Part shown: positions 1 to 59,145 of the stretch, in pieces
Layout of the letters: each line of letters opens with the position of its first letter
Position numbering within the stretch: position 1 is the stretch's first letter
NCBI GenBank assembly: GCA_949361645.1
Contig: OX442436.1
Span: forward strand, 3,844,032 to 3,908,031
Origin: Spongilla lacustris
Lineage: Eukaryota; Porifera; Demospongiae; Spongillida; Spongillidae
Length of the DNA: 64,000 nt
Direction of reading: 5' to 3'
Program-made: the position numbers and the translations under genes
The notes under the pieces: generated by a model
What the model was told of the DNA's origin: nothing
Database searches by the model: none
Seen by the model: the letters and a program-made list of their open reading frames with translations, nothing else

Positions 1-671
1 CAGCAAAGAAGGTAAAGCCATTTATGTTAGCTTTTAAGATGTGTTATGAATGTTGGGAGTACTATTTTCATTTCTAGTAACAGTCCTCCAGGTACTTAGT
101 ATTATGGTGTAGTGTTTAATTGATGTGCTAACTCTTGATGGGTGTTACCACTCTTATATTAGAGCCCACTTTATTTTTGACAGTGTAACAATAAAGAGTG
201 GAGTACCACTATCTAACCCATGGTTTGCCAATTTGACAGCTGTGGCATGTGGAGTGTATTGTTGGGTTCATGTAGAACAATATGATGTGCTTGGAGACAG
301 CAGATTTGATAGACAACTTTATAGCCTTCATTGTGCCTAGCAAAATGGCATTGTTCTTGCCATTGCTTTGATTCAGCTTTTCAGGGGTTAATGGAATAGG
401 GTATATAACATGAAGTGGCCCACAGTCCTGTTCATTGCAGTTGCATGCATTTAGCTAGCTTCATAGTGTAACCACGATTTGGTTTGGAGGCCCTTCACAA
501 CTTCCTGGTGGGCTTCATTTTGGCCACATAAGTTGGCAGGTTCCTTTGCACGTAAATGTAAGATACCATCAGTCACCTACTGGTGTATGTGGGGCTCCAG
601 GCTTTTGTACAGCTTTTGTGTGGTTTGTGATGAGTCTCTCCCTCCCCTTTTGTCTACACACCCAGCCAAGA

Positions 672-19913
<19,242 letters not shown>

Positions 19914-23783: not shown

Positions 23784-24968
23784 TCAATGCATGATTGAGT
23801 AAAGAGCGGCCCCATCCTCAAAGCCCAGGCCACTTCTCCACTTTACTCTGGAACCCCTTAGGCATAAGCTGGCTGCTCTGATGATGGCAAATGAAAGCCT
23901 TGCTCTGATGTAGCCACATGTTTGTGCATAAGACTTTTTCCATTTGCTTGCAACACATGTGGCCATTCTCTTCAGGAAGTGCTCTGCTTCCCGGTGAAGA
24001 AGTCCATCAACTGAAGTCACAAAGGGTGTAAAAGTACCTCTCCGATCTTCAACTGCTTGCCTGTAAATTCTCTTTTTTTCCTGAGCACCCGATTCAAGAA
24101 CTGATTCTGGCGAGCGATTGCTGTATGATGGGGCATCTGTATCAATGACCTTGAAGTCAAAGAGCGCCTCTGCCTGAGGTTGCCAAACACCACGCACCCC
24201 CAAATCCAGCCTCAACCCTGAGTCATCCACTTGTGTTTCTGCCTCTCTAACGATTGGCTCTCTGACAACCTGTGTCCACACCTGTGCTGCAATATCTCCA
24301 ACGCAATCTCTGATCTCATTATGTCTCTGGATAACTAGGCCACCAACCTTACAGTCAAGAGCATGTTGCAATGTTAATGAGGCTCCACAACCATCACACT
24401 TTGAAGGAAGGTCTGTCGGGTCACGCATATAGCGAACCGCTAACCCATCTCTAAATTGAGCTGGAGACAGGTCAAAGTGACAGGTAGCGATTGGAAGGAC
24501 AGATAACCATGCCGATGTTTTGCCGGAGATAGCTCTTTTAATGGCTCTTTTTCGCTTTGATGTGAACTGCATTAAAATACTGTCAAGTGCAGATTGGTAA
24601 GTCTGTTCCTTGGTGGTAACATGGTGTTTTCTAGCATCCCAAAGAGTATCTAAATGTTGTACTGGATCAAAGACATCAACTCCTTTCACTGCTTCAACTA
24701 ACACTTTAGTTCCTTGTCTGGATGTCTGGTAAGCTAAAGTTGCTGTCTTAGTGGGGTCAAAAATCCCTAGTCCTGCTAGAGATGTTGGTTGCGCAACGGG
24801 CCGACCGGTTACGTAACTTGACACACTGGTAATGCATCGGGCCAACCGGTTACGTAACCGGCTGGCATTACACACTGGTAATGCATCGGGCCGACCGGTT
24901 ACGTAATTATAACCGGACGACCGGTTACGTAACGGGTGGCCCGTTACGTAACCCGCCAAGTTACGCAT
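23784..24968 (-). CDS. RLE-type retrotransposon ORF, C-terminal part (zinc knuckle and endonuclease), 5'-truncated
   Basis: Non-LTR elements of this class (R2-like in design) use a reverse transcriptase followed by a zinc knuckle and a restriction-like PD-(D/E)xK endonuclease that nicks the target. The ORF keeps the part after the RT: basic region near residues 138-150, C-x2-C-x7-H-x3-C knuckle at residues 191-206, an 'RHNEIRD' motif (215-221), then 'LRLDLG' with Asp255 and 'FDFKV' (Asp271, Lys273) as likely catalytic residues. The next stretch 'DTDAPSYSNRSPE' is characteristic of the family in marine invertebrates. The first 60 residues translate a palindromic repeat (24790-24965) and are not part of the protein; no RT domain is present upstream. 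The long open frame suggests recent insertion or capture. Confidence 0.75.
   Translation of the reverse strand: MRNLAGYVTGHPLRNRSSGYNYVTGRPDALPVCNASRLRNRLARCITSVSSYVTGRPVAQPTSLAGLGIFDPTKTATLAYQTSRQGTKVLVEAVKGVDVFDPVQHLDTLWDARKHHVTTKEQTYQSALDSILMQFTSKRKRAIKRAISGKTSAWLSVLPIATCHFDLSPAQFRDGLAVRYMRDPTDLPSKCDGCGASLTLQHALDCKVGGLVIQRHNEIRDCVGDIAAQVWTQVVREPIVREAETQVDDSGLRLDLGVRGVWQPQAEALFDFKVIDTDAPSYSNRSPESVLESGAQEKKRIYRQAVEDRRGTFTPFVTSVDGLLHREAEHFLKRMATCVASKWKKSYAQTCGYIRARLSFAIIRAASLCLRGSRVKWRSGLGFEDGAALYSIMH
24790..24965. repeat. Palindromic CCGGTTACGTAACCGG repeat cluster
   Basis: At least five copies of CCGGTTACGTAA-type words separated by GCATCGGGCC and ACACTGGTAATG. One copy is a perfect 16-bp palindrome. 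They lie at the 5' break of the retrotransposon ORF. Confidence 0.8.
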
Positions 24969-25009
24969 CCTTGCGGAACATGGATACGCATGGGTGTGGC
25001 TACGTCAGA

Positions 25010-56469: not shown

Positions 56470-57667
56470 TCATAGTGCAGTATAGCTAAGGTCACACATA
56501 GTATAATCATAAAATGGTTCAAGCCTTCTTTCATCAATATGATCCTTTGGGAACTTTTTATAATACTGTTTCTGCATTGCGTAGGTACAACCACCATTCA
56601 CAGCTGCAAACGTGGCATCATCTAATAAAAAGGTTGTAATAAAAGTGCCTAACAATAATATAGCCTTACCATGTGCAATTACAATGTATGTTTTGTCTCT
56701 TTTGATCAAATTGTTCCTGATGTCTTTAATAATGCTCTTTTCTTTGGCTGGGGAATTTTTAGCTCAATTAAAAAAAACTCACAGCATATTAACCTGCATA
56801 AATGATAAATGATGAACTCACTACAAATCACTGCATTTTTCTTCAAACTACTTTTCATCTCTGCATTCTCACCACACTCAAATACACATCTTTCAACTAA
56901 GCTTGCAAGGTGACCTGGAGTAGCACTTGAGGAATCGCATGACAGTGACTTTGGACACTGCTTCCCTCTATATACTGCAGCACATGTCACCTTTTCTTTG
57001 CCAATGTCAAGTACTACCCCACAGGTCATGTCCATGCTGGTATGGGTATCAGATCAGTATGACAGTTTACATATATAAATGAATGAAGAGATGGCATGTA
57101 CATGCAACTTACCCAGCTAAAATGGCCACCGCAGAGCTCAGATATGCTACCGAAGGGCTGAAAAACTGCCGCAAAAATGGAGCAGCTATCCTAGCTCGAA
57201 TCTCATCATTCCACAATCCAGGGGGTTCCAAGATAATCACTGGACAATACCTAGGGTGAGCATGGGTATCTAAAAAGCAGCTAACTATTAACTCAGGTAG
57301 GAGTTCTTCACGAATTGGCAAGCCCTTCTCTATCACATGTACAATACTATCAGGATACTTTTCCTTTGCATTTCTTCCACAGAAATAACGCTCATAGAAT
57401 GCTCTCCGAATATGGAAATCAAACACACCAGGAACCTAATTCAACCAAAGGATTAATACATCAAAAAAGAAGTTAAACTCTTACCAATGCTACAACAGAC
57501 TCAACACTACTGGTAGTGATGCTAGAGTCTGTTCTGTTCAATAGTGCAAACTTGCAGGAGTAGCTGCCCAAGTCCACACATGCTAACCTCTGGTATGTAG
57601 GCAGACTTATAATGATACATTGCTTGTATTTCCCATACCAATCCTTGGTGAATGGAGCTGGATCTAA
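56470..57667 (-). other. Actin-like domain of the fusion (exons 6-10)
   Basis: Phosphate-1 motif 'ACVDLGSYSCKFAL' with Asp427, 'VIILEPPGLWND' (the LTEPP-like strand), 'SSAVAILAG', and phosphate-2 motif 'GVVLDIGKEKVTCAAVYRG' with Asp574. It then diverges: the C-terminal third is shortened, with 'IVIAHGDDATFAAVNGGCTY' and no recognisable barbed-end or polymer-contact loops. About 295 residues against 375 in actin suggests an Arp-type nucleotide-binding module rather than a filament former. Confidence 0.75.
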
Positions 57668-59145
57668 CTGAAATACACGGGAGTAAATGATATGATTAAG
57701 ACCTGCAAAAATTTTACGTTAGTGGTATTAGTTGATGCTGTAGCATGATGAGATTGACGCATATCTGGCCACTTCCTTTTATACAGTTGGTACCATAACT
57801 GTCCATCCATACACATGGTATACCATGCCTGCATTTATAGGCAGTAAATATAGTTATGTAGCATACATGTGTACATACAGGGGTGAATGTAATCACCTTA
57901 CAGACAACCATTGCAGAACAGAGGTCCTCTACTGACAAATACCCAAATATTTTCATGAATAATTCATAGGGCAAGACTTGAGCAAAAATCTCAACTGTAT
58001 CCCTGCTCACAGTCCTCTGTGCTTGACACTGGAGTGCAAGCCCCTCCATATATGTGTCAGTAAATCCTTGGACATCTCCAGCTATATATGTGTAAAGTCC
58101 CTACATCTAATAATAAAGACTGTATTATACTTTCAACAGTACCTTGTTCAAGCTTCCAGGACTTTGTGTAAAGGACCACAGTTTTGAGATAATTTTCATT
58201 TTCTCTATAGGACGAGGGATTGGGCAGCATCTCTGTGTCCACTCGTTTAAACATGACCTCTGTTCGAATGATGTATTTGGTACCCTCAGTTACTGGTTGG
58301 CCCTCATGCAAGGTGTCATGGTTGAAGATCAGTGCTGTCCCAGCTCTTGGTGATACAGAGCACACCTCATCATGATCTACATGTAGAGGATTTTTTAATG
58401 AACTCATCTACATGTACATGCAAACTGTATACCTCCTTCAGAGAGAAACGATGTAGCCCCTCCCCCAAAGTCAGCGTTCAAATATATCACCACTGTAAAG
58501 ATAGAGCTCTCTTCCTCGTTAGGTACCCATGGACCATCGAGGTGGGGGCTGAAGTGATCACCACATCTGAAGTATGAACGCGTTATTTTATCACACAGTC
58601 CGCACGAAGCTCACGTGTGCTTACTTGTACTTCCCAAATTTGCAACATTCATTCAAGCGAGATGGCTTCCAAGTACCTTCATTACCAAATCCCACAGGTC
58701 GAATGCATATAACCTCCCTGCGCGTGAAGAAGGGTTCTATTCTCCTCCACAAGCACTCCACCAGGGGCTTGCATATGGACAGAACTCGATCGTTGGAGCG
58801 ATACTTCACTGGAAACAAACTAGCGAGGTCTGCATAACCAACTTGCTCCGTCTCGTGGATGTAGTGTGCACATTCTTCGGGCATAAGGACAGAATGAAGT
58901 AGAAAACATCTGGATCCAGGGACATTAAGCTCCTCTCTAATGATACCCGGAGGCGAATAGCATGACTCGATGGTAGGACAGTCCTTAACTGTTCTGAAGT
59001 TCTTCTGGGCGGTCACAAGCATCGGACGGATCTCAAGCTTCGGTTCCCCATTGCCGCCAGGAAACGTGAAAGCTTCACAAGATGTAGTAGTTCGTGGCGG
59101 TTCAGTAGCACTAGCACAGCTAGATCGAGACGATTTGTTGCCCAT
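56470..59145 (-). CDS. 2OG/Fe(II) oxygenase - F-box - actin-like fusion protein, 10 exons, 711 aa
   Basis: Three known folds in one frame. Residues about 55-295: prolyl-4-hydroxylase-type 2-oxoglutarate oxygenase. Residues about 330-390: F-box, the Skp1-binding module of SCF ubiquitin ligases. Residues about 415-711: actin-like ATPase domain. Exons, 5' to 3': 59145-58625, 58566-58433, 58376-58143, 58081-57897, 57828-57718, 57667-57485, 57435-57113, 57036-56822, 56747-56670, 56621-56470; all GT/AG, total 2136 nt. The 57668-57717 intron is only 50 nt; an alternative donor at 57702 would leave 35 nt and was rejected. No signal peptide or membrane span; the Gly2/Ser-rich start 'MGNKSS' fits an N-myristoylation pattern, which is speculative. 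F-box plus actin-like is known from plant ARP8; the added oxygenase is not known to me. Chimerism from two neighbouring genes is unlikely because phases and short introns run through without an internal stop or start. Confidence 0.85.
57718..58081 (-). other. F-box domain of the fusion (exons 4-5)
   Basis: Residues 333-386: 'LPYELFMKIFGYL', 'VEDLCSAMVVCKAWY' (across the exon 4/5 junction) and 'GQLWYQLYKRKWP', the full F-box helix pattern with the LP start, the hydrophobic core and the terminal W-x-L-W motif. Confidence 0.8.
58143..59145 (-). other. Oxygenase domain of the fusion (exons 1-3)
   Basis: Double-stranded beta-helix signature: 'GDHFSPHLDG' with iron ligands His182 and Asp184, and 'HDTLHEGQ' with the third ligand His242. 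Lys252 or Arg256 in 'TKYIIRTEVMF' should bind the 2OG carboxylate. The preceding 'VVIYLNADFGGGATSF' is a typical P4H-family strand pair. All ligands are present, so it should be catalytically competent. Confidence 0.88.

Follow-up and report, generated by a model that had tools for sequence, protein, structure and literature searches.

A sponge gene family with a predicted prolyl 4-hydroxylase-type oxygenase, an F-box and a putatively degenerate actin fold in one reading frame

The described proteins that come closest to the sponge gene studied here each combine fewer domains. The plant protein ARP8/SUSA2 (At5g56180) carries an F-box and an ACTIN domain and binds ASK1; its authors think that the actin domain binds the substrate, report that alanine at predicted nucleotide-binding residues left function unimpaired, and state that the combination occurs only in the plant lineage (PMC7562919). 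In Dictyostelium, the nonheme dioxygenase JcdI/Fbxo13 depends on O2 and binds Skp1 via its F-box; JcdI and JcdH both pair an F-box near the N-terminus with a JmjC (JmjD6-like) dioxygenase, and excerpts of the article describe both groups as lacking metazoa and report no actin half (PMC9485057). The present gene lies on the minus strand, from position 59145 to 56470, of a 64,000-nucleotide stretch of Spongilla lacustris contig OX442436.1 (the window; C24:3844032-3908031 of the 248.6-Mb assembly) and encodes a predicted prolyl 4-hydroxylase (P4H)-type oxygenase, an F-box and a probable actin-fold half. Like ARP8/SUSA2 it places the F-box before the actin-fold half, whereas the plant protein has no oxygenase. 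Its closest F-box sequences in the PDB belong to KDM2A/KDM2B (FBXL11/FBXL10), animal proteins that also combine oxygenase and F-box; these are histone demethylases of the JmjC kind, carry CXXC, PHD and LRR domains, are not of the P4H type and are not known to have an actin part. PhyA resembles the sponge protein as a prolyl hydroxylase tied through Skp1 to the Skp1–Cul1–F-box (SCF) ligase, but is a separate enzyme that is not known to carry an F-box or actin part. Prolyl 4-hydroxylases proper (bacterial P4H, P4H-TM, algal P4H) share fold and sequence profile with the oxygenase part, and we know of none with an F-box or actin partner. Two-domain combinations have precedents, while the triple architecture is apparently both recurring and undescribed: as the original prediction had supposed, no description was found in the open-access literature searched, and novelty is claimed on that search alone.

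One reading frame and its relatives

The predicted frame of 711 codons was reproduced, with ten in-phase exons joined across nine GT-AG introns of 48-76 nt and closed by a single terminal stop. This model uses the exon 9 acceptor at 56747, which is preferred because an alignment guided by the Ephydatia muelleri protein P0001 selects it and the C3 paralog (below) has a matching exon of 78 nt; with the other acceptor, at 56762, the protein would be 5 residues longer (716 aa). Spliced alignment of a second Ephydatia protein, P0002, scored 2429 at the gene versus 34.8-60.4 in 8 controls, for which both strands of 4 other stretches of the window were aligned. Pfam profiles detect the oxygenase (2OG-FeII_Oxy_3, PF13640, 50.6 bits, cut-off 27) and the F-box (F-box-like, 58.4 bits, cut-off 24.3; F-box, 34.5 bits, cut-off 20.5). 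The earlier claim of one gene with three domains is supported.

The order recurs in other protein records. A first protein search returned five relatives: P0001, P0002 and P0004 from E. muelleri (order Spongillida), P0003 from Halichondria panicea (Suberitida, a different order), and P0005, a 1037-aa record with a complete open reading frame (ORF) that is named as a Trinity contig and, judged by that name, is taken for an RNA assembly product. Profile searches extended the set to P0006, a 976-aa ORF on a contig of 3050 nt that passes the cut-off for each of the three Pfam domains, and to P0007, P0008 and several fragments. Identity of the window oxygenase is 0.67 to Halichondria, 0.51 to P0006 and 0.45 to P0005, and domain by domain the window protein is 55-89% identical to P0001 and P0002, in keeping with a freshwater sponge.

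Protein search also located two further three-part loci in the Spongilla genome, C3:10434213-10436835 and C15:4749011-4752688, which brings the count for this genome to at least three such genes, each on its own contig. From the exon after the one ending near residue 173, both are free of internal stops and share the intron phases 2,1,1,0,0,0,2,1,1 of the window gene; C15 has one GC donor, and the first residues of both paralogs and the last of C15, which had to be forced into place, are uncertain. The C3 protein passes all three Pfam cut-offs (oxygenase 46.1, F-box-like 56.3 bits), and the C15 protein passes for oxygenase (48.5) and F-box-like (50.2) and fails for Actin.

Exon 1 (58625..59145) carries the start codon (MGN...) and the N-terminal part of the 2-oxoglutarate (2OG) oxygenase; in both paralogs it stops at the equivalent residue, and the following exon has the same phase. 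The remaining exons are placed by the gene model together with the paralogs. Exons 2 (58433..58566) and 3 (58143..58376) encode the oxygenase core, the former with the HxD motif and the latter with the distal His and presumed 2OG Lys; exon 4 (57897..58081) holds a linker (TDTYMEGLALQ) and the start of the F-box, and exon 5 (57718..57828) the F-box end and a variable linker. A DWYGKYKQ segment and the phosphate-1 motif of the actin-like half lie in exon 6 (57485..57667), whose border with exon 5 the Halichondria query places elsewhere. The actin-like core (exon 7, 57113..57435) and the phosphate-2 region (exon 8, 56822..57036) follow, then exon 9 (56670..56747 in the 711-aa model) and exon 10 (56470..56621, stop codon included).

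Conserved sites were counted in a 15-row table of members, from which P0009-P0014 (other architecture) and the fragments P0017, P0018, P0019 and P0022 were excluded. P0020 spans only the Asp of HxD and is uncounted there, P0007 has no actin half and P0015 has a gap at the adenosine GG; the rows are not fully independent, P0020 and P0021 having a tail in common and P0001 closely resembling P0015. Alignments A2-A6 exclude P0004 (model out of frame); A3 is also without P0001, A5 without P0001, P0005 and C3, and A6 without P0001, P0002 and C3, taking in P0007 and one C19 oxygenase. The iron ligands His182-x-Asp184 (58536..58544) are kept in 10/10 members covering both residues, and the third, His242 (58306..58308), in 10 of 11. 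Lys252 (58276..58278), the presumed ligand of the 2OG C5-carboxylate at His+10, is likewise Lys in 10 of 11. The exception at both positions is P0004, whose model seems out of frame at the His242 equivalent. All five residues named in the original prediction (His182, Asp184, His242, Asp427, Asp574) stand at their predicted positions, and the O2/2OG site, with the triad and a basic 2OG ligand, appears intact from its sequence. The oxygenase profile passes in 8/8 full-length members scanned; by sequence the domain is a 2OG/Fe(II) oxygenase of the prolyl-4-hydroxylase type, which may act on proline. NCBIfam searches of P0002, P0003 and P0006 gave just weak 2OG dioxygenase matches, far under cut-off. 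Pfam Pox_C4_C10, whose fold may be that of prolyl hydroxylases, matched the oxygenase weakly in P0002 (13.4 bits), P0020 (21.1) and the C15 paralog (19.2; cut-off 25).

At the N-terminus, all six members from the Spongilla genome and Ephydatia with a readable start begin with MGN: MGNKSS in the window (59134-59145, minus strand), MGNLCN in C3, MGNSAS in C15, and MGNISS twice and MGNKSP in Ephydatia. Ser at position 6, a feature of N-myristoylation sites, occurs in 4/6, and Halichondria P0003 begins MSKAG. Upstream of the P0005 oxygenase, residues 109-152 weakly resemble WWE, with 13.4 bits where the cut-off is 21.1.

The F-box (Pfam residues 332-375; 57778..57977, split by the intron 57829-57896) was confirmed, with boundaries that differ from the 333-386 first proposed. 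F-box-like passes in 8/8 full-length members scanned, barely so in P0005, where the second F-box profile falls slightly under. Among solved F-boxes KDM2B (E 8e-7) and KDM2A (E 1.4e-6) are closest, and KDM2A ranks first with the family profile as query (E 6.2e-10). Recruitment of Skp1/Cul1, as originally proposed, is thus plausible on the sequence of an intact F-box.

Oxygenase relatives also occur outside the fusion. P0007 (521 aa; 51% identity over 30% of the query) joins the domain to ankyrin repeats and lacks F-box and actin half; the oxygenase domain therefore has other partners. At C19:7028609-7032980 two near-alike, inverted, unfused oxygenase ORFs of 257 and 265 aa (2092-2865, minus, and 5705-6502, plus, of the locus) contain HYFGPH(T/C)DG and end in KKYIMRTD. 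At C15:6.11 Mb, inverted copies (about 2812-3033, plus, and 4808-5029, minus) hold two small family-related F-box fragments, probably a relict. In one scan each, 192 stretches of viral contigs and 42 of genome contigs (searched for prokaryotic relatives) matched a short pattern, and none was confirmed as a relative. Rfam gave 0 matches at gathering score over the whole window; elsewhere in it, an ORF at 459-1040 (plus) has an RNA-recognition-motif-like stretch that to us resembles polypyrimidine-tract-binding proteins, and an open frame of 406 aa at 23784-25004 (minus) is presumably the end of a retrotransposon reverse transcriptase.

The actin-like half and its rate of change

The test for an actin fold came out positive for the C-terminal half, which is probably a degenerate form of it. 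The Pfam Actin profile passes in 3/8 full-length members (C3, 29.2 bits; P0003, 34.2; P0006, 31.5) and in the fragments P0008 (54.5) and P0016 (37.1); the C15 paralog (17.4), P0001 and P0002 fall under the cut-off. The tail of P0005 is recognisable as an actin half via the family profile only: it gave no significant match to four actins of the Spongilla genome (hhalign E 0.065, probability 0.9%), and matched the family profile with a one-template E-value of 2.7e-5 over 70 columns and with 18.4 bits, where 200 shuffles reached at most 2.3.

Both actin phosphate motifs of the original prediction are in place in the window protein and only partly kept across the family. In the phosphate-1 motif (DLGSYSCK, with Asp427 at 57572..57574) D, G and K are kept in 13/13 members covering it, and in phosphate-2 (DIGKEK, Asp574 at 57006..57008) the Asp is kept in 10/12 and replaced by Lys or Asn in the other two. 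The adenosine GG is missing in 7/10 members covering it, the window protein included, and kept in P0006, P0008 and P0016. Ser and Thr align with Gln137 and His161 (which we take as actin residue numbers), and the window protein has no counterpart for some 85 of the residues that lie between positions 180 and 290 of actin. A complete nucleotide site, with two phosphate loops, GG and Gln/His, was thus not found, and with GG missing and Ser/Thr at the Gln/His equivalents the label 'ATPase' given earlier is unsupported.

This half also changes faster than the rest. Between the window gene and C3, NG86 puts the ratio of nonsynonymous to synonymous rates (dN/dS) at 0.34 for the oxygenase, 0.24 for linker plus F-box and 0.79 for the actin half (YN00: 0.49, 0.19 and 0.91); replacement and silent codons number 28:28 in residues 40-403 versus 76:23 in residues 404-690 (Fisher P 0.0012), and two other paralog pairs, which are not independent, concur (P 1.8e-4 and 6e-5). 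In 28/28 pairs of 8 members, similarity is higher in the oxygenase than in the actin half. The contrast may owe something to gene conversion in the 5′ part: between P0001 and P0002 the two values are 0.96 and 0.55.

A candidate oxygen-dependent receptor and its rivals

We read the family as SCF-type F-box receptors that carry their own oxygenase, in which the actin fold would bind a client and ubiquitination or client choice would depend on oxygen and metabolism, and we give this reading a probability of about 0.5. It is favoured because conserved catalytic and adaptor domains beside a fast-changing fold with a broken nucleotide site fit such a receptor. The F-box, being intact, would dock on Skp1-Cul1-Rbx1; the actin fold, its ATPase features lost, may serve as the client-binding module by analogy with the proposal for ARP8/SUSA2; and the P4H-type domain, with Fe(II), 2-oxoglutarate and O2, would hydroxylate the docked client or a nearby protein of the complex, by which ubiquitination or client choice would become sensitive to oxygen and metabolism. 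We infer SCF assembly, protein hydroxylation, client identity and oxygen dependence from these features. A narrower form, in which the same molecule hydroxylates a client and presents it to SCF and so merges the PHD and VHL roles in cis as a one-polypeptide oxygen-gated degradation device, is tentative and on the whole unlikely.

Several points weigh against the receptor reading. The sponge evidence consists of sequences and models. In the window protein Actin (PF00022) scores 19.8 bits, under its cut-off of 27, so that in the three-domain Pfam search proposed earlier oxygenase and F-box alone passed; a profile from four actins of the Spongilla genome gives it 6.0 bits (E 0.25 per 1000 sequences) and the C3 paralog 5.0, with C15 not listed. 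A further weakness is the shallow structure model (7 sequences; mean predicted local distance difference test score 58.8, predicted template-modelling score 0.39); Foldseek alone gave query TM-scores of 0.18-0.26 among the 50 matches listed, a second structure comparison being clearer. Relaxed constraint, rather than adaptation, may account for a dN/dS of about 0.8-0.9 in the actin half. An actin-only model, P0015 (record name Em0011g548a), exists. Finally, in JcdI the F-box was dispensable for the overexpression oxygen phenotype (PMC9485057), and the two activities therefore need not be coupled.

The last point also bears on the best-surviving rival, in which the F-box is a stability or localisation handle only and the protein is mainly an oxygenase whose target, a cytoskeletal or actin-binding partner, docks on the actin half. 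The JcdI phenotype required the enzyme and not the F-box (PMC9485057), the oxygenase exceeds the actin half in likeness in every pair, and the MGN start in 6/6 hints at membrane attachment; against this, the F-box shows no decay, passing in all eight full-length members (P0005 barely), and we consider the explanation unlikely.

Less likely again is a Skp1 hydroxylase, in which the F-box brings Skp1 to the oxygenase and a C-terminal Skp1 proline is hydroxylated, as by PhyA of Dictyostelium and Toxoplasma. The P4H type of the oxygenase suits it, and a Spongilla Skp1 exon (C2:7813566-7813661) reads NDFTPEEE, the proline being kept, where human Skp1 has Glu in place of the PhyA target (PMC7864055). 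That proline is read in one of two Skp1-like places, the one on C2; the other lies on C11. The presumed 2OG ligand is Lys252 versus Arg276 in DdPhyA, and free Skp1 is reported to have a disordered C-terminus, Pro143 included, a region that F-box binding would be expected to engage. We rank client hydroxylation above Skp1 because F-box binding should occupy Skp1 and because the ligand is Lys, not Arg. PhyA structures were not among the 50 matches listed in the second structure comparison, which carries no weight either way.

A nucleotide-gated switch, the role first proposed for the actin half, would have ATP gate the oxygenase or the ligase. The invariant phosphate-1 residues, and GG in three members, speak for it. 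It is nevertheless improbable and unsupported, given the GG lost in 7/10, the Asp574 equivalent lost in 2/12, Ser/Thr at the Gln137/His161 equivalents, the missing stretch of about 85 residues, and plant SUSA2, which functions with such residues changed (PMC7562919).

That two or three adjacent genes were read as one is scarcely credible: P0015 spans the actin part only, seeming to begin in intron-like sequence, and the C-terminal extension unique to P0001 indicates that models can be over-joined, but order and intron phases are equal at the three Spongilla loci and the order stands in Ephydatia, Halichondria, the complete ORF of P0005 and the 976-aa ORF of P0006. The extension itself (P0001 residues about 690-834), which other members lack, is perhaps an over-joined gene model.

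Beyond the plant lineage

Because sponge genes carry F-box and actin-like parts together, the plant-only statement is contradicted irrespective of any common origin with ARP8: animal F-box-actin proteins exist, and the combination extends beyond plants. A profile search for F-box-actin proteins, which needs shared exact words, gave 10 matches, none of them named as a plant protein and most without names. If P0005 and P0006 come from organisms other than sponges, the triple fusion would predate sponges; both could also be of sponge origin. The family adds another F-box/oxygenase hybrid beside JcdI and KDM2. F-box proteins define which targets SCF ligases send to destruction, and O2, iron and metabolism can influence 2OG oxygenases. 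With both in one protein, next to a degenerate actin fold that is likely a recognition module, the family would allow a direct test of whether ubiquitination is coupled to oxygen in an early lineage of animals.
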